DNA from: a virus
Reading direction: 5' to 3' (one strand)
Virus record (IMG/VR): IMGVR_UViG_3300021413_000002
Span: 1 to 20,281 of that record
DNA: 20,281 nt
Shown: positions 1 to 16,188 of the stretch, piece after piece
Numbering within the stretch: position 1 is the first letter of the stretch
Layout of the letters: each line of letters opens with the position of its first letter
Notes under the pieces: model-generated
Databases searched by the model: none
Seen by the model: the letters and a program-made list of their open reading frames with translations, nothing else
What the model was told of the DNA's origin: nothing
Program-made: the position numbers and the translations under genes

Positions 1-226
1 CCTCGCGTGCCGGGTCATGGGTGTAGGGGTGGTCCGCCGGCGTCGAGCAGACGAGCGGGGTTCCACTGGCCGATCCGTTCAGGGTGTTCGCGACACCGAG
101 TGCATCGCCGAGCGTCATGGAGACGAGGTGTACGTCAAAGCCGGCGGCGATGTAATAGAGCATCGCCAGGCCCATGCTGAGCGACTCATCGTCTGGGTGA
201 GGTGCATAAAAGAAGACGCGTCCCAT
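1..226 (-). CDS. PIG-L/LmbE-family deacetylase, N-terminal part (cut by window edge)
   Basis: The first 75 residues are visible; the gene runs off the left end of the window. Residues 10-14 read HPDDE, followed by SLSMG. This is the hallmark zinc-binding and catalytic motif of the PIG-L/LmbE family (MshB, GlcNAc-PI deacetylase), where His and Asp bind zinc and the second Asp acts as base. A short hydrophobic strand (VFFYA) precedes the motif and a helix-strand (AGFDVHLVSMTLGDA) follows, as in the Rossmann-like fold of this family. Family members remove N-acetyl groups from sugar substrates; the substrate here is unknown. The ATG start is preceded by a G-rich stretch (GGGGG). The gene is last in the visible tail operon, after the glycine-rich tail protein and a 79-aa unknown. 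The family assignment is firm; a role in modifying virion or host glycans is inference. Confidence 0.85.
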   Translation of the reverse strand, partial: MGRVFFYAPHPDDESLSMGLAMLYYIAAGFDVHLVSMTLGDALGVANTLNGSASGTPLVCSTPADHPYTHDPARE

Positions 227-6400: not shown

Positions 6401-7185
6401 TCCGGGCTCAGGGACTTGAAGGTCCGGGACGCAAAACCGGCCATCGACACCAGAGTCGACTCGAACGGCTTCGAGATGATCTTCATGTCCGCGGCCATCG
6501 ACCACAGGCTCTTGTTCCAGGCGTTGCGGACAGCAACGGTCTTCGCAGCGAACACGATGCCCAGGGCACCTAGTCCGACACCGAACCCGGCGACGATCCC
6601 GGCGCCCGCGATCTCACCCACGACAGGCAGCGCAACAGCCAGCGCGCCACCGACGCCGGCGATCAGCGCAGGGCCGATCACCGGCGTCTTCAGGGCGCCG
6701 GTGATGCCGCCGAGGATGCCGTTCCCGGCGTTGGTGCCGATCTGCTTGAAGACACTGCCGCCGCCGAGGTCGAACGACTTCTTCAACGACCCAAGGAGGC
6801 CCTTACCGGCCTTCTTGCTCTCGTTGTCGAGAGCAGACCCCAGTTCCTTCGCCGCCTTCAACGCGACCTCGCCGGACACGGCAGCGTCACGGCGCGCCTT
6901 CGCCAGCGCCTTCTCGGCGGCGATGACCTGACCGGTCTTCGCCTTCGAGTTGCCACGGACATCGGCGAGCCGCGCCTCCGCGACCTGAACCTTGTCCAGG
7001 GCATCGGACTCGGCGTTGTGGGCCTTCGTCAGGTTCGCCGACGCCTTCGCTACGTCGTCGCTGATCTTCGAGGTCTTCTTCAGCGCCGTGCCGGTCTTGT
7101 CCGCCGCACGCGCCACCTTGTCGAAGACGGCCGACGCCCCGTCGTCACGGGCGAAGACGTCGAACGCGAGAGTGGAGTCAACCAC
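3439..7185 (-). CDS. tail tape measure protein
   Basis: This 1248-aa protein is the longest in the window and sits between the tail chaperone and the distal tail gene, the diagnostic position for a tape measure. The N-terminal 150 residues are helical and Lys/Ala-rich. Residues about 165-215 are strongly hydrophobic and Gly-rich (GPALIAGVGGALAVALPVVGEIAGAG), a likely membrane-inserting segment. Residues 596-655 and 656-715 are two 60-residue tandem repeats. Residues about 761-779 hold GEKGPELWTPKTDGTIIPN, a motif seen in many tape measures, and LGIASPSKAF near 822 and LGIHSPSTVLEWHG near the C-terminus recur in the family. The protein sets tail length and travels with the DNA into the host. 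The start is GTG with GGAGG seven bases upstream, two bases after the frameshifted chaperone stop. Confidence 0.96.
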   Translation of the reverse strand: MVDSTLAFDVFARDDGASAVFDKVARAADKTGTALKKTSKISDDVAKASANLTKAHNAESDALDKVQVAEARLADVRGNSKAKTGQVIAAEKALAKARRDAAVSGEVALKAAKELGSALDNESKKAGKGLLGSLKKSFDLGGGSVFKQIGTNAGNGILGGITGALKTPVIGPALIAGVGGALAVALPVVGEIAGAGIVAGFGVGLGALGIVFAAKTVAVRNAWNKSLWSMAADMKIISKPFESTLVSMAGFASRTFKSLSPDLAASFKALAPAFTSFGDQLGHSFARLGPALVPLSTATAAVLKSLGGALPDLIGKLSSQLIDLSASVERNPAGLKDLASGLIGVTDGALKTIKVLNDVDSVLKKIPGGFGFFSGLPGKLDPVKGSIDAIFTAISNLDNLLAGSSANSQQLADIVGKSGAAVSAYGQAAAGAAGGLDKQAGAAARSAHETHAANAAAALAAGAYDRQAAATDKLVGSLNKLSGLLLTLSGAQIGYQQAVDDATQAVKDNGKTHDINTQKGRDNKTALDQVAASAIAQRDAMLKANDGNMSAAKSALSSRGAYEKLAQQMGFSIPVAKAMAAQLIALPPVKRVDVTANIKDLQGKLATAQTALKSPHLTATKKSKLEATISNLTSGIATSKALLASLPQSRTAKLQANKADLEAKIKSAQALLASPKLSATKKATLTANIANAKAGIATINGMLAGLPKSKSTTLTTNIVTKYTTVGSRSSGSGVGGGHLAPVAPGRAVGGPVKAGQPYMVGEKGPELWTPKTDGTIIPNNALKTGQSVASGLAQGMLGGAGSAISAAGQVAAQMIAKARDVLGIASPSKAFAQLGLYINQGFKIGLLGSSKSVQSVMSSLMSKVLNIAFNAADTKKAIQKTIASYNTAIAAARKKIKPVTSGMSNSEAAKTERNNAAAAASIKALRAKLAGAKIDLANVQAIASRLGTTVKRNAVIGMLQRENVAMQKLANARAVVANQLKAAQTKLASAIQVRDEFKKSITDAAMTFNSIANIQPPDGGQLTASGIIAQMSETLRKTQAFAANLARLKKSGLNSTTYEQIASAGVDQGGSIADALLSGGGNTFNSINRLQANINSAATGLGSTAAANMYQAGVDAAQGLVNGLLAKTKALDAASQKLANAIVAQIKKTLGIHSPSTVLEWHGSMAGKGFAKGVEGEYGRVMKAGAGLGTSVLPGSRPRRAAVPANGVRGGGGIYITVNGALDPNAVALQIQQLLNRYGRTGGVSVSR
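5041..5400 (-). repeat. two 60-residue tandem repeats in the tape measure protein
   Basis: Residues 596-655 and 656-715 align without gaps. Both start AN, and both carry an (L/S)PxL(T/S)ATKK block at the same offset, a GIAT block and LP(Q/K)S(R/K) near the end. A partial older copy (LPPVKRVDVT) lies just before. The copies are diverged at the DNA level. Confidence 0.75.
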
Positions 7186-7187
7186 GA

Positions 7188-7406
7188 TCAGCCTCCGTAC
7201 TTGCGCGCCATGTCGATGAGGGCCTGTTTGCCGTCGACCTGCTGGGGTTGGTCGTCTGGTTCGTCCAGTTCAGCGAGGACCGCTTCGTACGTGTGGAGCG
7301 TCTGCCAGTTCCAGTTCTCTGCGGCGATGACGGAGAGTGGGATGCCGGTGCGGGCGCTTATTCGGACGAGACGTCGGCGGTCGGATCCGGCTGGGTAGGT
7401 GGGATC
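7188..7406 (-). CDS. tail assembly chaperone, frameshift extension (-1 frame)
   Basis: This 72-codon open frame overlaps the end of the chaperone gene in the -1 frame and continues to a TGA two bases before the tape measure start. It reads DPTYPAGSDRRRLVRISART, then GIPLSVIAAENWNWQTLHTY, and ends ALIDMARKYGG. It contains no ATG, GTG or TTG before its last few codons, so it cannot be translated on its own. Siphoviruses usually place two chaperone products, G and G-T, before the tape measure and join them by programmed -1 frameshifting. Read that way, the long form would be about 159 aa. The window for slippage is short, between the -1 frame TGA at 7407-7409 and the zero-frame TAA at 7358-7360. 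Confidence 0.85.
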   Translation of the reverse strand, partial: DPTYPAGSDRRRLVRISARTGIPLSVIAAENWNWQTLHTYEAVLAELDEPDDQPQQVDGKQALIDMARKYGG

Positions 7407-7666
7407 TCATCGGTGGTCTCGTCAGGCTTCTCGGGGTCCTCGTAGACCTCGACATCCTCGACCCGGTCGAGCCAGGTCTCGTAGTCGAGCGTTTCCTTCT
7501 TGAGGGTGACGAGCGAGGCCCACCCGAGGTGGTAGCCGATCGCAGCGGCGTTCTCGCTGTTCATCCCGTTGAAGTGCTGCTCGGTCATCACCGTCGCGCG
7601 CGGGAGGACTTTCACGATCTCCTCGCGGCCGTCCTGGTAGGTGACCTTGACCTTCTTCGCTGCCAT
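7358..7666 (-). CDS. tail assembly chaperone (short form)
   Basis: This 102-aa acidic protein lies directly before the tape measure gene. It begins MAAKKVKVTYQDGREE and has a helical centre (NSENAAAIGYHLGWASLVTL) and an acidic Pro/Asp/Glu-rich tail (VYEDPEKPDETTDE). The size, acidity and position match the short tail assembly chaperone that binds the tape measure protein while the tube assembles around it. The frame stays open further upstream, but the ATG at 7666 has the ribosome site AAGGGAG and gives a natural N-terminus; the extra upstream residues come from the hairpin region. The second product is made by slipping into the -1 frame near the end of this gene. Confidence 0.85.
   Translation of the reverse strand: MAAKKVKVTYQDGREEIVKVLPRATVMTEQHFNGMNSENAAAIGYHLGWASLVTLKKETLDYETWLDRVEDVEVYEDPEKPDETTDEIPPTQPDPTADVSSE
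7397..7403 (-). promoter_or_regulatory. candidate -1 ribosomal frameshift site
   Basis: Between the -1 frame stop and the zero-frame stop, the best candidate is C CCA CCT read in the zero frame. The proline tRNA on CCA would re-pair with CCC after slipping one base back, while the second tRNA would have one mismatch (ACC). This is not a textbook X XXY YYZ heptamer. The frameshift itself is well supported by the overlapping frame; this exact site is a guess. Confidence 0.3.
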
Positions 7667-7673
7667 GACTTCT

Positions 7674-7741
7674 CCCTTGACCGTCCTTGACCGGGGGATG
7701 TGGCAGCGGCACCGTCCGGTCAAGGGTGGACGGTGCCGCTG
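7674..7741 (-). promoter_or_regulatory. hairpin with potential pseudoknot before the tail chaperone gene
   Basis: The 81-base gap between the gp10-like gene and the chaperone holds a perfect 14-bp inverted repeat (arms 7704-7717 and 7728-7741, cagcggcaccgtcc and its complement) around a ten-base loop. In the minus-strand RNA the loop reads ACCCUUGACC. Its CCCUUGACC is complementary over nine bases to GGUCAAGGG at 7674-7682, which overlaps the chaperone ribosome site, and it can alternatively pair with CCGGUCAAGG at 7685-7694. Translation control or transcript processing is possible. There is no T-run, so a plain intrinsic terminator is unlikely. Confidence 0.55.
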
Positions 7742-7747
7742 GACTAG

Positions 7748-8185
7748 CTAGGCGATCTTGCGGGCGATCGTGTCGAGCGCCTTCTTCAGTTCCTCGCGGA
7801 CCTTCGGCGCGCCGTCATGGATCGGCTTCGTGAACCAGTCCTTCGCCTTCGGGATCAACTGCCCCACCCACGTACCGGGCTCTCCGTACACCGGGTGGCG
7901 GACCGCTCCGTCGTTCGTCAGCCGCAACTGAGTGATGCCGCGGGCAACGATGTGGATTCCGCCGACCCGACGCTGGTGAGACATGCCCGCGGACGCGACG
8001 AGTGCGTTCAGTCCACCCCTGCGGGGCAGGTTCGCCGCAGCCGAACGTGTCGCTGCCCGCTCCAGAGGCGGCGCTGCGCGTTCGAGCGCGTCGTACAACT
8101 CAGGCTTGAGCTCACCCCGGGCTTTGCGGAGCCGGGCGGCGAGCTCGTTGAACTGCTCGGCACCCCGGACCTCGATGCTGGCCAC
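7748..8185 (-). CDS. HK97 gp10-like neck or head-tail protein
   Basis: This 145-aa basic protein begins MASIEVRGAEQFNELAARLRKAR and continues with a long helix (ELYDALERAAPPLERAATRSA). Its middle is beta-rich (VGGIHIVARGITQLRLTNDGAVRHPVYGEPGTWVGQ). The C-terminus is a Lys-rich helix (KVREELKKALDTIARKIA). The helix, then basic beta-sheet with a HPVYG motif, then helix layout is that of the HK97 gp10-like family, which works at the head-tail junction during tail joining. The start is GTG and overlaps the tube stop by one base (TAGTG), showing tight coupling. In many siphoviruses this gene precedes the tube gene, so lying after it is a small order change. Confidence 0.75.
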   Translation of the reverse strand: MASIEVRGAEQFNELAARLRKARGELKPELYDALERAAPPLERAATRSAAANLPRRGGLNALVASAGMSHQRRVGGIHIVARGITQLRLTNDGAVRHPVYGEPGTWVGQLIPKAKDWFTKPIHDGAPKVREELKKALDTIARKIA

Positions 8186-8607
8186 TAGGCGGTGGGGTAC
8201 GTCATGCCTGCGTTGCCGCTGTTCTTGAAGGTCGCGGTGGTCGCGGGCACGTCGCCGATGCTGGCGTCGAGGAACTTGTACTCGAACATCAGCGCCGTGG
8301 CCAGCAGTGCGGCCGGGTTGGTCGCTGAACGCGCCGCACTGGTCGGCCGGACCTCGACGGCCACCGGGGTAGTCGAAGCGATCAGCGGTGAGAGCGTCGC
8401 GTGAACCTTGGACGCGGCGAAGTCCTGCAGGAGGACGATGTCCATCGTCGCGTCACCGAGGCCCTTCAGCGAGGCCTTCGAGGTCGCGCCGAACGTGGTG
8501 GCGTCCTTGTCGTCACGGGAGTCGGTGACAGTAACTTGGTTGCCGTGGTCACTCAAAGTGACCCCGTTGATGATGATGAGGCAATCGACGAGCGTGAACG
8601 CGGCCAT
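8185..8607 (-). CDS. major tail (tube) protein
   Basis: This 140-aa protein is beta-rich throughout. It contains IIINGVTLSDHGNQVTVTDSRDDKDATTFGA, KGLGDATMDIVLLQDFAASKVHATL and a C-terminal strand pair ending TATFKNSGNAGMTYPTA. The pattern of a strand with SRD(D), then an FGA turn, GLGDAT, QDFAAG-type sequence and a final strand matches short tail tube proteins of actinobacterial siphoviruses. These stack as hexameric rings into the tail tube. It lies two genes before the chaperone and tape measure, as expected. AGGAG lies about nine bases before the ATG. Two hairpins sit just upstream, which may insulate this highly expressed gene. I am fairly sure of the tube assignment. Confidence 0.8.
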   Translation of the reverse strand: MAAFTLVDCLIIINGVTLSDHGNQVTVTDSRDDKDATTFGATSKASLKGLGDATMDIVLLQDFAASKVHATLSPLIASTTPVAVEVRPTSAARSATNPAALLATALMFEYKFLDASIGDVPATTATFKNSGNAGMTYPTA

Positions 8608-8658
8608 GAGTGTGGCTCCTGGAGTCTCGGGGGTGGGAACGGAAACCCCAGGCAGTGC

Positions 8659-8694
8659 GGAAGGCCCGGCGCGCCTGGGTGTGCCGGGCCTTCC
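8659..8694 (-). promoter_or_regulatory. 12-bp perfect hairpin upstream of the tube gene
   Basis: The arms ggaaggcccggc (8659-8670) and gccgggccttcc (8683-8694) are perfect complements around a 12-base loop in the 122-base gap between the 111-aa gene and the tube gene. The stem is very GC-rich and no T-run follows on the minus strand. It may be a transcript-stabilising or partial-termination element. Confidence 0.5.
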
Positions 8695-8696
8695 TT

Positions 8697-8717
8697 CCCT
8701 CGGGGATCAGCCGAGGG
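8697..8717 (-). promoter_or_regulatory. 7-bp hairpin after the 111-aa gene
   Basis: Arms ccctcgg (8697-8703) and ccgaggg (8711-8717) enclose a seven-base loop, 12 bases downstream of the stop of the preceding gene. With the larger hairpin at 8659-8694 it forms a tandem pair of stems before the tube gene. Confidence 0.4.
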
Positions 8718-8729
8718 TGTCTACGTGTG

Positions 8730-9065
8730 CTACTTCTTCTTGGCCGGTGCTTCCTCGGCGGGAGTCGCGTCCTGTACGGACACAGCGACGGGACCCGTCT
8801 TGGTAGCAGGGGCCTCGATGCGCTCAAGTTGGCCGCCGGCAATCAAGGCGCGCTCGGTCTCGACCCGCAGCGCGCCCATCCACTCGCCGTCCTGAGGACC
8901 GCCCGAGAAGTTGTCCGACAGCACCCTGTAGGCGCGCGGGACGATCTCCAGGTGTCCGCCGTCGATCGCGTCCTTCTCGTCCATGACAGACAAGGCGAGA
9001 CTGACCGCCGCGTCGCCATACTGCGACTTCGCGGCGACCGAGATCGGCATGTACGTGTTCGTCAT
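8730..9065 (-). CDS. hypothetical structural-region protein, 111 aa
   Basis: I do not recognise this protein. It starts MTNTYMPISVAAKSQYGDAA and has a helix (VSLALSVMDEKDAI), a central segment (LEIVPRAYRVLSDNFSGGPQDGEWM), a second helix (LRVETERALIAGGQLERIE) and a low-complexity Ala/Pro/Lys tail ending EEAPAKKK. There is no membrane segment. The frame is open ten codons further upstream, but the ATG at 9065 has GGGAGAG a few bases before it and lies 11 bases after the preceding stop, so I use it. The position between the tail terminator region and the tube suggests a neck or tail accessory protein; the flexible charged tail is typical of small phage scaffold or connector proteins. Confidence 0.7.
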   Translation of the reverse strand: MTNTYMPISVAAKSQYGDAAVSLALSVMDEKDAIDGGHLEIVPRAYRVLSDNFSGGPQDGEWMGALRVETERALIAGGQLERIEAPATKTGPVAVSVQDATPAEEAPAKKK

Positions 9066-9076
9066 CAGCTCTCCCA

Positions 9077-9424
9077 TCAGAAGCTCAGCGACCACAATTC
9101 GTACGTCACCGTTGGGGTGACGGAGTGGGTGATCGTCACCAGACCGGTGGCCGGGTTCACCTGCTCGGGGTGGATGATGTAGATCTGCGACGTGCCGTTC
9201 GCGACGACGTCCGTGATCAACCCGGCGGGGAGCGGGTTGCCCGCAGCGGTGGACCCGGCGTCGGAGATCGTCACCGTGTCGGATGCGGCGTTGCCGTTGT
9301 TGATCTTGAGGAGCGCGCCGCGCTGGCCGATGAGGGCCTGGGCGATCGTGTCCGTGGCTGTGACGACGGCAGTGGCTGTGACCGTGCCGCTGTTCGTCGG
9401 CGTGGTGGCGACGAGTGCGCCCAT
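9077..9424 (-). CDS. beta-rich small structural protein, 115 aa
   Basis: I cannot name this one. It is Thr/Val/Ala/Gly-rich and looks all-beta: GTVTATAVVTATDTIAQA, ALLKINNGNAASDTVTISDAGS, GLITDVVANGTSQIYIIHPEQV, GLVTITHSVTPTVTYELWSL. The alternating pattern, length and lack of charged helices resemble small phage decoration or tail-surface beta-sandwich proteins. It follows the tail terminator gene by 15 bases with a clear ribosome site (GAAGGAG). It could be a decoration protein, a tail-tube partner or a stabiliser; the sequence alone does not choose. Having several beta-sandwich proteins nearby (Ig-like domain, tube, this one) suggests a shared structural role in the virion. Confidence 0.7.
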   Translation of the reverse strand: MGALVATTPTNSGTVTATAVVTATDTIAQALIGQRGALLKINNGNAASDTVTISDAGSTAAGNPLPAGLITDVVANGTSQIYIIHPEQVNPATGLVTITHSVTPTVTYELWSLSF

Positions 9425-9439
9425 GGTTGCTCCTTCGAG

Positions 9440-9901
9440 TCAGATTTGGCCCTTGTAGGTGACCGTGAACACGATCCGGACTTTGCCGGCCTGCGATGTT
9501 TGGACCGGGGAGTACCGGTGGTCCGAGACGAACGAATCCATCACCAGACCGCCGAGTTGCGGGTCTTGACGGAGTGCGTCCTCAGCGGCCGACACGAACC
9601 CGTACGCACGCGCCCGGATCGCCGGAACGCCGGTATCGCCGCTCACGGACACGACCGCACAGGTGATCTGGCCGTCTTCGGACTTCACCCGCTGGAACGC
9701 CATCCGGGACTGCTGAGCGGTCGCGCCCTCGTTGAACTCGTCCGGGGTCGCGCCGTTGTACCCGACGAACAGCCAGTCGTTCGACGGGTCACTGTTCACT
9801 TGGGGGCCGTCGGCAACCTGCAACCCCGTGAGGGTCGTGGGCGTTAGCGCCGACCACATCGCCGTGAGGTAGAGGATCACCGCGTCTGTCTGGGCGCTCA
9901 C
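9440..9901 (-). CDS. tail terminator protein
   Basis: This 153-aa alpha/beta protein starts with a helix (TDAVILYLTAMWSAL), then a strand and glycine turn (LQVADGPQVNSDPSNDWLFVGYNG), and a central sheet (QITCAVVSVSGDTG). A helix follows (VSAAEDALRQDPQLGGLVMDS), then a final beta pair (YSPVQTSQAGKVRIVFTVTYKGQ). The DGP...DWLFVGY turn, the LRQDPQLGG helix end and the final VRIVFTVTY strand are typical of tail terminators in actinobacterial siphoviruses, which form the ring that ends tail growth and docks the tail to the head. The start is GTG and overlaps the connector stop by four bases (GTGA). The order connector then terminator is the usual one. Confidence 0.75.
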   Translation of the reverse strand: MSAQTDAVILYLTAMWSALTPTTLTGLQVADGPQVNSDPSNDWLFVGYNGATPDEFNEGATAQQSRMAFQRVKSEDGQITCAVVSVSGDTGVPAIRARAYGFVSAAEDALRQDPQLGGLVMDSFVSDHRYSPVQTSQAGKVRIVFTVTYKGQI

Positions 9902-10710
9902 CCGAAATCACCCACCGAGTCCGGGGCGAGCAGCGCGACCGCACGGTACGGCACCATGTGGCCCGAGCCCGTCACCACGTAGCCCGCATCGTCACCTTGG
10001 ATGCTGGGCAGGTTCCCGAGCTTCGTCTGCCATAGGTGCTGAACGATCAGGCCTGCCGCGAGGATCCAGTTGGCCTTCACGTACGACTGGCCCACCGTGT
10101 AGGTGATGTCCATGTCGTTGTAAGGGAAGATCCCGCCCGGGGTCTTGAAAGACACGATTCCGGTCGTCGCGTCGACGGTGATGGATGTCAGGGCGATCGG
10201 GGTCGACCCGTCAGAGACGAGAGTGAGACCGGTGATGGCCGTGACGTTCGTGTGCGGCAGGTGGATGTACTGGCGGTAGCGCATGTTGACCCGGCGCGTG
10301 AAAGTCCTGGGGACGATCGGCCCGACGTACGACTCGACGATCTCCGTCGCTGACTCGAGGTACCCGCGCAGTTCGTCGTCGGATGCCGTATTGGTGATCT
10401 TCAGCTGCGTCTTCGCGTCCGCCAGCGACAGGAGCGCCGTGGATGCGGTGTCGCGGACCTCGAACACGTCCTGGTAGGCGGTGCTCGGGGAGGTGGTGAC
10501 CGCACGCCACGAGTACCGGCCCTTGACGGACGGTACGTAGGTGACCCGGTACTGGCCCATCACAGCGGGCGGGTTCGATACAGCCGGGGTTGCGGTGGTG
10601 CCGTCCGGAAGCGTGACCGTCAGCACTGCAGTAGACGCGTTCACTGGGGCGCCCGTGGCGTCCACCACGTCCCATGCGATGCCGATGGAATCCGCGATGT
10701 CGTAAGGCAT
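9898..10710 (-). CDS. head-tail connector with N-terminal Ig-like domain
   Basis: This 270-aa protein has two parts. Residues about 8-88 form an Ig-like beta-sandwich: GIAWDVVDATGAPVNASTAV, then LTVTLPDG, MGQYRVTYVPSVKGRYSWRAV and YQDVFEVRD. From residue 93, LSLADAKTQLKITNTASDDELRGYLESATEIVESYVG is the N-terminal helical signature of gp6-like head-tail connectors. It is followed by a beta stretch (RRVNMRYRQYIHLP, ITGLTLVSDG) and a C-terminal helix (WILAAGLIVQHLWQTKL). Connectors of this kind form the ring under the portal. The usual gp6-like domain stands alone or nearly so; here an Ig-like module is fused in front, perhaps exposed on the neck. GGAGG lies just before the ATG and overlaps the previous stop. 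Confidence 0.82.
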   Translation of the reverse strand: MPYDIADSIGIAWDVVDATGAPVNASTAVLTVTLPDGTTATPAVSNPPAVMGQYRVTYVPSVKGRYSWRAVTTSPSTAYQDVFEVRDTASTALLSLADAKTQLKITNTASDDELRGYLESATEIVESYVGPIVPRTFTRRVNMRYRQYIHLPHTNVTAITGLTLVSDGSTPIALTSITVDATTGIVSFKTPGGIFPYNDMDITYTVGQSYVKANWILAAGLIVQHLWQTKLGNLPSIQGDDAGYVVTGSGHMVPYRAVALLAPDSVGDFG

Positions 10711-13224
10711 CTATCCTCCAGTCGCGTTAGGGACGGGCATTGCTCCGCGGGATGCGGAAGGTGTAGCCATCTGCGACCCAGCAGAACCTGCGGTGGGAAC
10801 GATCACAGGCCTTGCCGTTGGCACCGGCCCGGTTGCTGCGTGGGCTACGCCGAGTTGGGTCGAGTTGTTGACTCCGGCGGCGGCGATGAGCGTCGTGACA
10901 AGCAGCGCGGCTGTCCGCTGCAGATTCGCTGCTCCGGTCGCGCTGAGAGTCACCGTCACCGGAACTGTTGCCGCTGACGACTTCCCGACCACTCCGGAAG
11001 CAGTGACAGAAACAGTGACCGTGGGCGCTGCGGAGCCATTGAAGGCCGGTGAGCCGACATTGCCCGCTGCAGTGACCGTCGCCGTGACGGTGCGAACCGC
11101 TGCTCCCGAGACAAGCCCCGATGCCGTGACAGTCGCAGTGATCGTGGTTGTGGATCCGCCGCTGAGTCCGGCACCTGCCGGCGACGCCGTGATCGTAGAG
11201 GTGATGGTCAGGGAACTCTGCCCCTGGTAACTCGCGACACCGGCGGCCGTTGTGGCTGCGGTGACCGTGAGGGTCGCGCTCGTACTCTTGTCGACCGCCC
11301 CTGTGGCCGCCGATGTTGCCAAGGCCGACACGGAGGCGCTTCCCGTGACCGCGAGGTTGCCGGTAGCAATGACCGCGGCGGTGACAGCAAGGGTTGATCC
11401 GGATGATGTGCCGCCACCACTCGAGGCGGCGACAGTGGCGGTGATAGGAACCGACGCGCTGCTCGAGGTGGCGACGTTGCCAACGGCGGCGACAGTCGCG
11501 GTGACAGGCAGCACGGCTGTGCCTGAAGCCACCCCGGTGGCCGTTACTGCAGATGAGACCGCCAGAGCCGCAGAATTCGCACCTGATGTGAGGCCGGCCG
11601 CAGCGATGGTGGCCACTGCGTTCAGGGTCGAGCTCGCGGTCGCTGCTCCAGTAGTCAACAGTCCCGCTGTCGCTACCAGGGACGCGCCGGTCGAGGCCAC
11701 GGTCGAGCCTGTTGCGGTTACGTTCGCCGCGGCGGTTGGTGTGGAACCGCCCGTCCAGACGACCGAAGCGGACGCCGAGACGGTCGCGGTTGCTGCTACG
11801 GACGCTCCGCTGCTGACTGTGCCGCTTGCCGCGATCGTGGCCGTGCCCGTGAGGGAGGCGGACCCGTTGAAACTGCCACCTGTCGGCGCAAAGACCAGTG
11901 CGAGCTGCGCCCAGTCGCGCGAGGTACCGATGTTCGGGTTCCACGTCTGCACACTGGTACCCGTGACGAGCTTGGCGACACCATAGACGTCTTGGTTGCT
12001 GGCTGCGGTGGCGTTCGCCGAAGCGACCCGCGTCAACGTCACCCAGTTGCCGTCGGTGGTGTCGGTGTCCTGCGTGAACACGTCGGTCGCCGGGCCCTCG
12101 GCCGAGATCGCGCCGTAGAACAGTTGGCCCGCAGCAAGCGGGGTCCGGGCGATCGATGGGGTCGCGGATGACCCTGTGGCAGTGGTGGATGCGACCGCCA
12201 CCGGGGTGGTGCCGTCGATGCCGTACCACTCTTCGACGTTGATCGCCTTCGCAGGCGTCGTTGGGGAATGGTTGACCGTCAGGCTGTCGCCGTTGGTGTA
12301 GGTGTTCACGACCTTCGCGTAGGCGATGTAGGTCGTCGACCCGTCATTGGCCGCAGAGGCCGCAGTGCGGTTCGCAGGACCGACCACCGTCCACGTGTTC
12401 GACCGCGGATCGGTGATCGTGCAGGTCGGTGCGGCACCGCTCGTGCCCGCGTTGTCCAGCGCGATCCGGGCGATCAGGTAGTTCCCGGTCGAGATCGACC
12501 CCGCGGCAGCCATAGCGACCGCTGTAGAGGTCGCCGTGGTGGTGTTGGCGACCTGCCCGCGGTCCGCCTTCTTGCCGATCGCCGGGGGAGTGAAGGACGC
12601 CGGCCGGATCGAGATCAGGTTCCACGCCCACGCCGACGTCGCAGTACCGACGGCGTCGAAGTTCACCAGTTCGGGACCGGCCTTGGTCGTCTCGTTGGCT
12701 TTCCGTGCAGCCGTGTAGGCGATATCGACGCCGAAGATGTTCTCGGCGACATCAGTGCTGCTGGAGATACCGACATCCTGGAACTCGGCACCGCCGCCGA
12801 ACACCCAGCAGCCGTCCTGGCCAGTGGTGATCGTGCCGTTGAAGGCGTTGGCGGTCGTGTTACTGGTGTTCGTGGTGTCGACATACAGGGTCGCGTGCTG
12901 CCCTGTGACGACCCACACCTTCAGCCCGATGGAGGCGTAGGCGTTGGTGGTTGCATTGACCGTGCGCGCAGACCCGCCGCTCGCCCCGACGTCACAGGTG
13001 TACATCTGGATGACGCTTTGACCGGCCACGTTGTTGAACGGACCGGCCGTCGCGAAGGTCAAGCCGCTGCTGGTGACGGTGAAGGTCGGGGTACCGGAGA
13101 ACGATGTGCTCATCACCTGCAGCACCAGCAGCGAGCCGACCGGAGGCGTGAAACTCGCCGTTGTTACCGAGGTGGCCGCGAGCGCTACGAGCGGTGGAGT
13201 GGAGGTATCAATCGCGAGAGTCAC
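10711..13224 (-). CDS. large repeat-containing virion protein, putative head or neck fibre
   Basis: This 837-aa protein has no obvious named family. Residues 1-208 and about 215-448 look like two related beta-sandwich domains; each ends in a similar strand with a hydrophobic core (AWAWNLISIRPAS and DWAQLALVFAPTG). Residues about 454-788 are made of roughly 17 degenerate repeats of 17-23 residues with the consensus (S/A)(S/T)LxVTATVxAxGxV, rich in Ala, Thr, Val and Ser. The last 49 residues are Pro/Ala/Thr-rich. There is no signal peptide or membrane segment. The repeat length and alternation suggest a beta-stacked fibre. It sits between the capsid gene and the connector, so it may decorate the head or neck rather than the tail. 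The start is GTG with AAGGGGG before it. Confidence 0.75.
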   Translation of the reverse strand: MTLAIDTSTPPLVALAATSVTTASFTPPVGSLLVLQVMSTSFSGTPTFTVTSSGLTFATAGPFNNVAGQSVIQMYTCDVGASGGSARTVNATTNAYASIGLKVWVVTGQHATLYVDTTNTSNTTANAFNGTITTGQDGCWVFGGGAEFQDVGISSSTDVAENIFGVDIAYTAARKANETTKAGPELVNFDAVGTATSAWAWNLISIRPASFTPPAIGKKADRGQVANTTTATSTAVAMAAAGSISTGNYLIARIALDNAGTSGAAPTCTITDPRSNTWTVVGPANRTAASAANDGSTTYIAYAKVVNTYTNGDSLTVNHSPTTPAKAINVEEWYGIDGTTPVAVASTTATGSSATPSIARTPLAAGQLFYGAISAEGPATDVFTQDTDTTDGNWVTLTRVASANATAASNQDVYGVAKLVTGTSVQTWNPNIGTSRDWAQLALVFAPTGGSFNGSASLTGTATIAASGTVSSGASVAATATVSASASVVWTGGSTPTAAANVTATGSTVASTGASLVATAGLLTTGAATASSTLNAVATIAAAGLTSGANSAALAVSSAVTATGVASGTAVLPVTATVAAVGNVATSSSASVPITATVAASSGGGTSSGSTLAVTAAVIATGNLAVTGSASVSALATSAATGAVDKSTSATLTVTAATTAAGVASYQGQSSLTITSTITASPAGAGLSGGSTTTITATVTASGLVSGAAVRTVTATVTAAGNVGSPAFNGSAAPTVTVSVTASGVVGKSSAATVPVTVTLSATGAANLQRTAALLVTTLIAAAGVNNSTQLGVAHAATGPVPTARPVIVPTAGSAGSQMATPSASRGAMPVPNATGG
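10861..11865 (-). repeat. about 17 degenerate ~20-residue coding repeats
   Basis: Within the 837-aa protein, units such as GAAVRTVTATVTAAGNV, GSTLAVTAAVIATGNLAV and GTAVLPVTATVAAVGNV follow one another with little or no spacer over residues about 454-788. The DNA copies have drifted, so this is an old protein-level repeat rather than a fresh tandem duplication. Confidence 0.8.
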
Positions 13225-13259
13225 GACAACACCCCCTTACGGCCGGCGAATGGTGCGCG

Positions 13260-13649
13260 TCAGGCGGCGATCGGGGTGAGGCTGATACTGAGGCTCGTCA
13301 GGGAGAACGTGTTGGCCGAGGCCCACGCCTGCGACGCGGTGAGCGCTGCGGAGAACAGGAAGTTGCCGGCCGTGGTCGAGTCCCAGCAGGAGATGTGACT
13401 CAGGGTCTCCGACGTGCCGCCGTTCGTCCACGAACCCGACATCGAAGACATCGCCAGCGAACCGGCCGACGCCGTACCCCAGGTGACCGTCTTCCGGGTC
13501 GCGTCACCGACCGCAGCGGCAGTGGTCGCGGCCACTCCTGGGTCAGCGGTGTGCAGCTTGACCGCGACCAGCGCCGCAGTGTAGCTCGTGTTCTTCAGCG
13601 TCCCCAGCCACAGGTTCGCCAGGGTCGTCGCTGCCAGACCTACGGTCAT
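13260..13649 (-). CDS. tail-fibre-like beta-rich virion protein, 129 aa
   Basis: This protein matches a short family often labelled tail fibre protein in actinobacterial phages. It begins VGLAATTLANLWLGTLKNTS, then has ALVAVKLHTADPGVAAT, RKTVTWGTASAGSLAMSSM and LSHISCWDSTTAGNFLFSAAL, and ends in TFSLTSLSISLTPIAA. The LHTADPG turn, the VTWG strand and the SHISxWDSxTxGxFL strand are the recognisable parts; the fold is probably all-beta. It does not lie in the tail-tip region but directly before the 837-aa repeat protein, so it may be the base or partner of a head or neck fibre. A strong GGAGGA ribosome site overlaps the end of the 48-aa gene. Confidence 0.75.
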   Translation of the reverse strand: MTVGLAATTLANLWLGTLKNTSYTAALVAVKLHTADPGVAATTAAAVGDATRKTVTWGTASAGSLAMSSMSGSWTNGGTSETLSHISCWDSTTAGNFLFSAALTASQAWASANTFSLTSLSISLTPIAA

Positions 13650-13792
13650 GATTCCTCCTGCTGCGTGAGGGACCGGACCTGGTCCTCGGTGAGTTCGACT
13701 GTCTGATCGACCGGGATCTGCTCGACCAAGTTGCCGGCGGCGTCCCTGACTTCACCGGTCGCCTGGATCCGCAGCTCGTAGCGCTGCGCCAT
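13646..13792 (-). CDS. hypothetical 48-aa protein
   Basis: This small protein reads MAQRYELRIQATGEVRDAAG, then NLVEQIPVDQTVELTEDQVR and SLTQQEES. It is acidic, with a beta-hairpin-like N-terminus and a helical C-terminus, and has no membrane segment or cysteine. The ATG overlaps the stop of the 65-aa gene (TGATG), and the end overlaps the start of the 129-aa gene by four bases (ATGA), so it fits exactly between its neighbours in the operon. That tight fit is the main reason to believe it is real. I do not know its function; a small head-accessory role is likely from position. Confidence 0.65.
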   Translation of the reverse strand: MAQRYELRIQATGEVRDAAGNLVEQIPVDQTVELTEDQVRSLTQQEES

Positions 13793-13989
13793 CAGTCGGC
13801 GGACTTCCGGGTCTCGGCCTTCTTGGCCGGGACCGCCTTCTCGACGTTGTCCTCGACCACCGGCTCACCGATCCCGGAGGCGCACATGTCGGCACCGACG
13901 TTGTCCTCGACCTCGAGCACCTCACCGACCTCAGGCCAGTCCCGGCCGTTCAGGAGCCCGGTGGGGCGGTTGACGATACGAACCTTCAC
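13792..13989 (-). CDS. hypothetical 65-aa head-region protein
   Basis: This protein begins MKVRIVNRPTGLLNGRDWPEVGEVLEVED and ends in an Ala/Lys/Glu tail (EKAVPAKKAETRKSAD). The pattern of a short KVRI strand, WPEVGEVLEVED and a DMCASGIGEPV helix is common in small proteins encoded shortly after capsid genes in actinobacterial phages, where it is usually left unnamed. It looks like an SH3-like or small beta barrel with a disordered basic tail. The start is GTG and overlaps the previous stop by four bases (GTGA). I infer a head-assembly accessory role from position only. Confidence 0.7.
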   Translation of the reverse strand: MKVRIVNRPTGLLNGRDWPEVGEVLEVEDNVGADMCASGIGEPVVEDNVEKAVPAKKAETRKSAD

Positions 13990-14201
13990 AGTGATTCCAC
14001 CAGCCTCTCAACGGCAGCGTTCGCGTCAGCGAGGGTCGTGTAGTCGCCTTCAAGGCGGACCTCGCCGAGCGTGGGGTGGAGTCCGGCGACAGCCCAAACG
14101 GAGTCGGCGGTGATGTAGGACGGGTAGAGCCGAACGAAAGCCTCAACGTTGAAGAACGAACTCTGACCCGAAGTCCCGGCGTAGACCTTTGCCCAATGCA
14201 T
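13986..14201 (-). CDS. hypothetical 71-aa head-region protein
   Basis: I do not recognise this protein. From the ATG at 14201 it reads MHWAKVYAGTSGQSSFFNVE, AFVRLYPSYITADSVWAVAG and so on, and ends in a helix (TTLADANAAVERLVESL). It is mixed alpha/beta with several aromatic residues and no membrane segment. A TTG five codons upstream is also open, but GGAAGG seven bases before the ATG supports the shorter form. It lies between the glycosyltransferase and the 65-aa protein in an unbroken run of co-directional genes. No function can be read from the sequence. Confidence 0.65.
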   Translation of the reverse strand: MHWAKVYAGTSGQSSFFNVEAFVRLYPSYITADSVWAVAGLHPTLGEVRLEGDYTTLADANAAVERLVESL

Positions 14202-14229
14202 CGCAATGCCTTCCAATCGACCGTTCGTG

Positions 14230-14886
14230 TTACTTCTCTAATGTCGGCAGCAGCTTGTAGTAGTCGGCCTTGCGCGATCGACGCTCCGGAGAGCGTTCAT
14301 GCTCGCGGTGGTGTATCCGTAGGTCGAGCGGTTCGGCCGGATCACAGATCAACAGATCTGGATCAGACAGACGCGCTGTCCTGCCGTCTGCTTCGCCGAG
14401 CACCCGACAATGCGAACCCTCGATACGAAGACCAGGAAGCGCCCGGTAGAGCCGACGAATCGGGTAGATAGACCAGCCGGCCGGAAGCCAGGACGGGACC
14501 TGCAGGTACTCGAACTCACACGTGGCAACGTGATGTGACGTACTGGCGAGCTGCTCCCGCAAGTTGCCCGGCACCGCAATCACGAGCTCGTCGGCGTCGA
14601 TCACGAACACCCAGTCGGCGCCCGATGCAACAGCCAGTTGGATCGTGTAGTCCCGCTTCGAAACCTCGCCATCCCATGGCTCCGGCTGGACGTGCACGGT
14701 GCAGCCCGGCCAGGCCTCCCGGATCGCTTCAGCTTGATCCGGGGGGCTGGACGGGTTGTCGTGCGGGAACGCCGCGTAAGGACCATCGACAGCTATCAGG
14801 TGGTCGCAGAACCGGGCGCTGGCCACGCATTCACGCAGCCAGTCGACCGGTTCGTCGTACCACGACAACACCGCGACGATCCTCAT
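14230..14886 (-). CDS. glycosyltransferase, GT-A fold (family 2-like)
   Basis: This 218-aa protein has a typical GT-A start (MRIVAVLSWYDEPVDWLREC) with the first Rossmann strand and an acidic turn, then DHLIAVDGPYAAF. At residues 97-99 the DAD motif, in DWVFVIDADELV, is the DxD that binds the metal and the nucleotide sugar. The region after it (REQLASTSHHVATCEFEYLQVPSWLPAG, RRLYRALPGL) fits the acceptor half. There is no membrane segment, so a cytoplasmic enzyme acting on protein or small acceptor is likely. The ATG at 14886 has AAGGA five bases before it; the ATG two codons earlier sits right on that site. Being embedded among virion genes suggests it glycosylates virion proteins, as described for some actinobacteriophages. 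The sugar and target are unknown. Confidence 0.88.
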   Translation of the reverse strand: MRIVAVLSWYDEPVDWLRECVASARFCDHLIAVDGPYAAFPHDNPSSPPDQAEAIREAWPGCTVHVQPEPWDGEVSKRDYTIQLAVASGADWVFVIDADELVIAVPGNLREQLASTSHHVATCEFEYLQVPSWLPAGWSIYPIRRLYRALPGLRIEGSHCRVLGEADGRTARLSDPDLLICDPAEPLDLRIHHREHERSPERRSRKADYYKLLPTLEK

Positions 14887-14901
14887 CAGCATCCTTAGGT
14901 G

Positions 14902-14934: not shown

Positions 14935-16188
14935 TCAGGTGGCCGAGTTGGCCAGGAACTTGACTGCGTTCGGGTCCACCGTGACCGCGCCGGTGCGCAC
15001 CAGCGTGCGGAACGCGACCTGGTCGTTGCCAAAGGCGTACTCGTTGCTGCGCTCGAAGCGCAGGCCGCCCGCGATGCGGATCTTCAGGGCCGACATCTCG
15101 CCGAAGTAGATCGGCTTCGCGCTCGCAGCCATCGACGGCAACTGCGGCACGACGTAGGCCGGCTTGCCGAGGATGGTGTCCGGGTCGCCCGCAGTGAGGG
15201 CTGGCTGCCAGATCGACGAGCCGTTCGGTGCGCCCTTCAGGTTCCGGATCGCCGCGAAGCTCGAGTCGGCCATGACCCACGCCGAGTTCGTCCGGTACTC
15301 CGGGAGAACCGAGTGGAACAGGTTCACCAGCAGGTCCGAACCCATACCGGCGGTGGCCTGCACGCCGAGGCTGGTCGACGTACCGGCCGGGCCGGTCACT
15401 CCGACCGTGGTGAACCCGGCGATCGCGGCGGCGGTACCGATGAACGACAGGGTGCGGGCGAGTTCACGACCGGCCGCCATGGAGATGTAGCCCTCGAGGT
15501 CGAAGTTGGTGTCCTGCACCAGCTCCGACGGGACGAGGGTCAGGTAGCCGTACTTGGAGACCGACAGGTTGACCGTGGTCACCGTCGCGTCGTTGGAGGT
15601 GATCGTGCCGGACGCGGCGATCACGGCCGGGGTTGCGGCGTTCGCCGTACCGGTCGTGGCGTGCACGGTCGCGACAGGCAGGGGCAGGGTGTTGCCGTCG
15701 GTGGTGTTGAGGATGTCGACACCGGCCTGCAGCAGCTGCGAACCGGCTACGGCGTACTGCCACAGCTGGCCGTACACGCCGTCCGGGGCGACACCGCCCG
15801 AAGCGGACATGGCACGGGTCTCAGAGCCACGGGTGGCCATCGCACGCCGCTCCGCACCCGGCACTGCCGGGATGTCGAACACGTCGCCGACGCGGGCCTC
15901 GCGAGCCCACTTCTCGAACTTGTTGTCGTCGGCCTGGCGCTGCTCGTCCGGCTTCTTGCCGGTCACCGAACGGAACGACTCCTCGAGCTCGCTGCCACGC
16001 TTCTCGCCGTCAGCGATGGCCTTCGCGCGCTCCTGGAGCTTGCCTGCTTCGGCGAACATGCCGTCGAAGGCGGACTGCTCCTCGACGGACAGGTCGCGGT
16101 CCTCGGTGACGCCCTTCTGGGCGATCTCCTGGGCCTTGTTGATGAGCGCCGCGCGGCGCTCCATCAGGGTGTCCGCAATGCTGGACAT
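14935..16188 (-). CDS. HK97-fold major capsid protein with scaffold region
   Basis: This 417-aa protein has a charged, helical N-terminal region (about residues 1-110, MSSIADTLMERRAALINKAQ, then EEQSAFDGMFAEAGKLQERA) typical of the HK97 scaffold or delta domain that is cut off during maturation. The rest is the capsid fold: GVYGQLWQYAVAGSQLL, LPLPVATVHATTGTA, VNLSVSKYGYLTLVPSELV, a long spine helix (DLEGYISMAAGRELARTLSF), AWVMADSSFAAIRNLK, GKPAYVVPQLP and a C-terminal part (YAFGNDQVAFRTLVRTGAV). The upstream prohead protease supports a cleaved scaffold, with the cut perhaps near residues 117-130. The ribosome site AAAGGGG precedes the ATG. Hairpins lie both before and after the gene. Confidence 0.95.
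   Translation of the reverse strand: MSSIADTLMERRAALINKAQEIAQKGVTEDRDLSVEEQSAFDGMFAEAGKLQERAKAIADGEKRGSELEESFRSVTGKKPDEQRQADDNKFEKWAREARVGDVFDIPAVPGAERRAMATRGSETRAMSASGGVAPDGVYGQLWQYAVAGSQLLQAGVDILNTTDGNTLPLPVATVHATTGTANAATPAVIAASGTITSNDATVTTVNLSVSKYGYLTLVPSELVQDTNFDLEGYISMAAGRELARTLSFIGTAAAIAGFTTVGVTGPAGTSTSLGVQATAGMGSDLLVNLFHSVLPEYRTNSAWVMADSSFAAIRNLKGAPNGSSIWQPALTAGDPDTILGKPAYVVPQLPSMAASAKPIYFGEMSALKIRIAGGLRFERSNEYAFGNDQVAFRTLVRTGAVTVDPNAVKFLANSAT

Follow-up and report, generated by a model that had tools for sequence, protein, structure and literature searches.

In the window, by which we mean the whole 20,281-base stretch of the IMG/VR virus record IMGVR_UViG_3300021413_000002, two neighboring minus-strand genes between the capsid and connector genes (13260-13649 and 10711-13224) on balance probably specify a neck appendage, a whisker or fibre attached at the joint between head and tail. 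A location at the neck is supported because a neck whisker protein of phage Sf14, gp31, belongs to the same family as the smaller product of 129 amino acids (aa), because the predicted fold of this product matches proteins of Sf14 and Bas63, and because both genes lie in the head-neck operon. It is further supported by the empty site in many relatives, by the exchange of fibre heads, by a connector arm that tracks the fibre, by the repetition of the layout at three other loci and by two relatives of 48-51 kb, whose genes past the tape measure include no second large fibre gene of the repeat type. An appendage on the head or neck had been proposed in the first-pass annotation of this DNA; this part stands, since the module sits in the slot between capsid and connector, comes and goes among relatives and includes a member of the Sf14 whisker family, while the proposed glycosylation does not.

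The minus strand of the window carries all recognised phage genes. Terminase, portal and protease come first, then the capsid gene and the six genes for a glycosyltransferase (GT) and for proteins of 76, 65, 48, 129 and 837 aa; after these follow the connector, a set of small neck and tail genes, the tape measure and the tail proteins. The genes of the region are:

14935..16188, minus strand: major capsid protein of HK97 type, 417 aa, upstream border (PF05065 E=2.4e-40, phrog_10 5e-49)
14230..14892, minus strand: GT-A glycosyltransferase, 220 aa, a separate insertion in the slot from the capsid gene to the 65-aa gene (phrog_7009 E=6.6e-43)
13986..14216, minus strand: 76-aa protein, without a family in Pfam and PHROG searches
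13792..13989, minus strand: 65-aa core protein, weakly DUF7302-like, slot border, in most relatives retained on the upstream side of the connector
13646..13791, minus strand: 48-aa protein, present at locus L009 too, where it adjoins the same Gp80 gene
13260..13649, minus strand: 129-aa protein of the Gp80/phrog_240 family, putative building block of a neck whisker (PF23140 E=1.9e-15, phrog_240 E=2.7e-18)
10711..13224, minus strand: 837-aa fibre with a GTG start, two non-repetitive domains and a Thr/Ser/Ala beta-repeat shaft
9898..10710, minus strand: head-tail connector, 270 aa (PF05135 4e-5, phrog_442 8e-26)

This gene set and order are as first annotated for the interval 10711-14886, except that the GT gene reaches 14892, slightly past its end. 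The accompanying remark that the usual place of tail fibres is after the tape measure is fair, and members of the 129-aa family in other phages do sit there. Relatives were gathered by their capsids: 20 viral contigs at the beginning, later 80, together with 10 contigs from actinomycete genomes (Antribacter, Nocardioides, Microbacterium, Occultella, Streptomyces, Kribbella and others). Two of the relatives, 48 and 51 kb long, have integrase- or recombinase-like genes by sequence inspection, which makes it probable that the group is temperate. The window phage is probably a temperate siphophage of soil actinomycetes.

The 129-aa protein belongs to the Gp80/phrog_240 family both by sequence (57.8 bits to PF23140 with a cut-off of 27) and by fold. 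Its AlphaFold2 (AF2) model, built from 30 homologues, has a predicted local distance difference test score (pLDDT) of 91.3, and Foldseek placed the Bas63 connector and the Sf14 neck (chain K) at the top, with fiber I of phage GP4 next. Template modelling scores were 0.67/0.78 for Sf14 chain K, 0.51-0.67 (query-normalised) for the Bas63 chains and 0.65 for 8jou, and the profile of the family retrieved the same three entries (8jou 8e-17, 9c39 3e-4 and 9mt4 1.3e-3, the value for Sf14 gp31 being 3e-4). The sequence of Sf14 chain K maps to FDI99_gp126 (110 aa), which is the whisker protein gp31 detected by mass spectrometry; whiskers were seen by cryo-electron microscopy to join the neck via gp30 and the adapter gp37 (PMC11821841). 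Sf14 gp31 is itself a phrog_240 member (1.9e-27) and, as a query against about 1,400 proteins of the relatives, returned only the 129-aa protein of the window and its twin in L009. Two further groups were considered as Gp80 relatives and dropped: profile comparison gave no support for the 133-aa proteins (phrog_3758) of relatives, and no relation was found for phrog_644-type proteins. The family marks fibres or whiskers, and by itself it does not fix a place in the virion because the Sf14 member is in the neck and mycobacteriophage members are encoded among minor tail genes.

In the 837-aa protein, non-repetitive domains at about 1-214 and about 215-450 precede a shaft at 451-837, so that the Thr/Ser/Ala repeat shaft described earlier is real but confined to the last 46% of the protein. 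Ser and Thr make up 33% of the shaft, Ala 24% and charged residues 1.8%. A 20-residue repeat is present (lag-20 identity 0.242, with 0.222 as the 99% shuffle maximum), and the strong hydropathy period of 2.0 corresponds to beta strands; with this period in place of heptads and so few charges, the shaft does not fit a coiled-coil trimer of the T4 fibritin type. Searches for a known family gave no Pfam match, only a sub-threshold PHROG match (E=0.067), and nothing in either the IMG/VR scan or the phage collection. Fibres at this site in relatives follow a common plan of head domain(s), repetitive shaft and short tail, and many of them are related to one another in neither head nor shaft. Between the window and L009 the 129-aa proteins are 96% and the shafts 63% identical, and the N-terminal heads are unrelated. 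The fibre head in L013 is a Laminin_G_3 domain (1.7e-10), a second protein of L019 has a weak GDSL match, and Arg/Pro repeats form the shafts in L012 and L019. Weak links by hhalign (E 2.5e-4 and 7e-5, with shuffled controls weaker than both) join domain 1 of the window protein to L019 and to the L005/L013 group, and homology of all fibre heads was not retained beyond these. Judged from sequence, a shared 129-aa protein and shaft with unrelated heads is the pattern of a host-contact protein with an exchanged tip.

Fibres with unrelated shafts end in VPTxTGG just 5' of the connector gene (L012 end 9072, L005 end 9192, L046 end 11147, window 10711-10750). The last GG overlaps the ribosome-binding site GGAGG of the connector gene, which accounts for part of the ending, and an anchoring of the fibre to the virion by this C-terminus was therefore not adopted. 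The V-P-T-x-T codons vary synonymously, so a role of these residues at the protein level is possible. In L094 the stretch from the 65-aa gene to the connector carries a 6.5-kb insertion (6614-13131) in which several genes look appendage-like; one has an fn3 domain and another a weak, sub-threshold pectate-lyase-like match.

The connector ATG abuts the stop codon of the 837-aa gene. Its product is a neck adaptor of the gp6-like type according to both PF05135 (24.3 bits, cut-off 21.2) and fold, with Foldseek matches to neck proteins of DT57C, T5, 812 and Milano; the adaptor occupies residues ~92-263 and residues 1 to ~91 are an extra arm. Among loci with a detected connector, this arm of ~90 residues is present in 12/12 fibre-positive and in 4/30 fibre-negative cases (Fisher 1.6e-7), and in four phylogenetically independent pairs arm and fibre changed 3.5 times in the same direction and 0 times in the opposite one. 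We propose with moderate confidence that the arm is the docking point for the fibre. The order capsid, 65-aa gene, Gp80 gene, fibre, armed connector recurs in L162, L169 and L183, which have more distant capsids and were found via the 129-aa family; the same family search found armed connectors near a 129-aa gene, in varying order, in L131, L135, L159 and L191. The connectors of the window and of L162 had no match in the isolated-phage collection, so that no cultured phage with this layout was found there. In the proposed arrangement the 129-aa beta-sandwich protein would serve as a building block or joint, the part played by gp31 in Sf14, and the 837-aa protein would form the fibre, its exchangeable heads probably contacting glycans of the host surface, and the connector arm would be the likeliest docking point or itself a part of the collar.

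The six genes between capsid and connector had been interpreted as a self-contained decoration cassette, in which the GT O-glycosylates the Ser/Thr/Ala shaft, and whether they come and go as a unit in relatives had been suggested as a check. They do not: the fibre comes and goes separately from the GT. The 65-aa gene is a core head-neck gene, because in most relatives it is kept near the connector, in fibre-positive and fibre-negative loci alike, and it divides the region into two slots. Slot 2, from the 65-aa gene to the connector, is empty in many relatives, where the connector directly follows the 65-aa gene, and in others holds small adaptor-like proteins and at least one fibre. The three small proteins, also counted in the cassette, are thereby split, the 48-aa protein accompanying the Gp80 gene in L009 too but the 65-aa one belonging to the core. 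Across the loci compared, three had both fibre and GT, 12 a fibre only, seven a GT only and 37 neither (Fisher p=0.70), and in independent pairs on the capsid tree the GT never changed in the same direction as the fibre. Fibre and GT are two adjacent insertions that are exchanged separately, as is concluded from this independent assortment, from fibres without a GT in L009 and L014 and from GT-B genes in fibre-less slots, and a unit including the GT is rejected on presence and absence across relatives.

The GT and fibre genes are adjacent, the shaft is rich in hydroxyl residues, and both genes occur together in the window, L005 and L013, which is what a glycosylated fibre would predict, but we consider this explanation very improbable. 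Fibres occur without a GT in L009, L012, L014, L018, L019, L025, L046, L094 and L095, and among these loci the near-relative L009 has the same 129-aa protein and much the same shaft with no GT in the slot; in L014, a fibre-positive 42-kb contig with a Ser/Thr-rich shaft, a search of the whole record for three common GT families gave no match. The Arg/Pro shafts of L012 and L019 offer few hydroxyls. An unrelated GT-B, with or without a methyltransferase, directly follows the capsid gene in the fibre-less L058, L060, L061, L064, L070, L071 and L075, and homologues of the window GT, also without a fibre, lie between terminase and portal in L007 and in the capsid-connector slot of cluster J mycobacteriophages (MiaZeal).

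The GT itself is of the GT-A type by its phrog_7009 match and by a D-x-D motif (D99, D101) that is invariant across five homologues; its Glyco_tranf_2_4 match (E=5.4e-6, 27.3 bits) is just below the Pfam cut-off of 27.5 bits. The contents of slot 1, from the capsid gene to the 65-aa gene, vary: besides the GT-B genes just named there is a GT-A in the window, L005 and L013, an HNH-like gene (by motif only) in L012, L019 and L025, and elsewhere a 111-131-aa protein with the C-terminus IA(I/V)WS. The 76-aa protein was not seen adjoining the GT in L005 or L013. Codon use of the GT gene is atypical (GC content at third codon positions 0.74), and off-type synonymous codon use is shared by the 76-aa gene and also by the fibre and a Gly-rich tail gene. 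The GT would be a separate, moron-like gene in the capsid-proximal slot, and the GT-B genes of fibre-less relatives suggest that a recurrent virion-modification slot lies beside the capsid gene. If the GT acts on the virion, the capsid or another head protein would be a likelier acceptor than the fibre, and we hold a glycan coat of this kind, independent of the fibre, to be somewhat short of an even prospect. In relatives, as in cluster J phages, unrelated kinds of GT cluster near the genes for capsid, terminase and portal, and glycans on the capsid and tail tube of mycobacteriophages are reported (Freeman 2023, as cited in PMC12619734 and PMC11256854). Against this, the capsid has no Ser/Thr-rich tail at its C-terminus, capsid ends are alike in GT-positive and GT-negative relatives, and the host surface or DNA may be the target instead. 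The GT of MiaZeal, gp21, is of the same phrog_7009 family (40% identity) and in the same slot, but differs in having a methyltransferase and two further GT genes beside it and no fibre. In L089, methyltransferase-like and glycosyltransferase-like genes (by inspection) are interleaved with connector-region genes downstream of the 65-aa gene (6723-8709).

Several observations weigh against a neck fibre, beginning with the fact that gene position is no proof of position in the virion. Sf14 gp30 and gp37 had no credible match among proteins of the window and relatives by phmmer and single-sequence hhalign, which distant partners could escape. The 129-aa family is found among minor tail genes in four mycobacteriophages of several clusters, in GP4 a member serves as fiber I close to the tail adaptor, and for the alternative 133-aa protein seen in relatives the match is to a baseplate component, one chain of the 7-7-1 tail-fibre structure. 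Only four independent fibre changes were available, so the arm-fibre pairs cannot reach significance (sign test p=0.125), and adjacency alone may be why arm and fibre travel together. The arm is present without a fibre in the connectors of L047, L092, L093 and L100, which weakens the idea of a strict fibre dock, and its Ig-like assignment is weak (filamin E=0.13, filamin in PDB profiles E 0.3 or worse, AF2 pLDDT ~55-60). The main rival, which we regard as rather unlikely, is that these are ordinary tail-tip fibres, i.e. receptor-binding proteins, whose genes merely moved into the head operon. It gains from mycobacteriophages in which family members follow the tape measure, from the relationship of the L014-type fibre head to the C-terminal end of a cluster J protein, the gene of which lies with those for minor tail proteins, and from the same two relatives without another large fibre gene. 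For the cluster B5 phage Mysterious, the listed components of the solved baseplate omit the gene that by order we infer to correspond to the 129-aa family (PMC13252515). A member of the very same family is a neck whisker in Sf14, however, and the module adjoins the connector gene and tracks its arm, also in the company of more distant capsids.

Fibres can also be borne on the capsid itself, phi29 being an example. Head fibres also exist in phage 7-7-1 (PMC12796354), and fibres on capsomers or vertices rather than at the neck would agree with genes just downstream of the capsid gene and with the 'head protein' label of phrog_240. We find this improbable: capsids are alike in fibre-positive and fibre-negative relatives (77% identity between L016 and the window), the partner that covaries with the fibre is the connector, and the nearest solved relatives by fold are neck proteins.

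A neck fibre would place the window beside known systems, since neck whiskers or fibres are found in Sf14, A-1(L) and T4, and the present layout would be a variant of them. In Sf14 too the whisker genes are among head genes, but between portal and protease, and this myophage has whiskers described as small gp30 and gp31 where the window has a large modular fibre. GP4, whose fiber I (PF23140 Gp80; PDB 8jou) shares family and fold with the 129-aa protein, is a podophage, and the title of the structure places its protein with the fibre-tail adaptor. Family members Newman gp34, Gardann gp23 and Luchador gp35 are encoded among minor tail genes and not in the head region. The Anabaena myophage A-1(L) also has a multi-gene fibre (gp82-gp81-gp80), anchored to the neck ring and with a carbohydrate-binding-like distal module (PMC10966104); it is a bead chain of repeated trimers with genes far from other structural genes, and no sequence relation to the window is shown.

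A broader proposal, which we offer as doubtful, is that actinomycete siphophages of many lineages use plug-in neck appendages, with a phrog_240-type joint and swapped lectin- or enzyme-like heads docked on a purpose-built adaptor arm, as their main adhesin for host glycans in place of tail-tip fibres. Many uncultured actinomycete phages would then contact their hosts through exchangeable neck fibres, which host-range predictors restricted to receptor-binding genes past the tape measure would miss. A phrog_240 gene, a fibre and an armed connector between capsid and connector could serve as the marker of the layout, and neighborhood alone would be no ground for reading GT genes of the adjoining slot as acting on the fibre.

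Two other features of the phage group were observed. In L014 (5496-6947) and L016 (190-1614) the terminase is only ~31% identical to that of the window while portal and capsid are 55-82% identical, hence the packaging gene was swapped. A PIG-L/LmbE-like, deacetylase-looking gene with an APHPDDE motif (by inspection) is present at a conserved position between tail and lysis genes (window 2-226, minus strand, cut by the window end; L103 6895-7740; L105 11804-12691).

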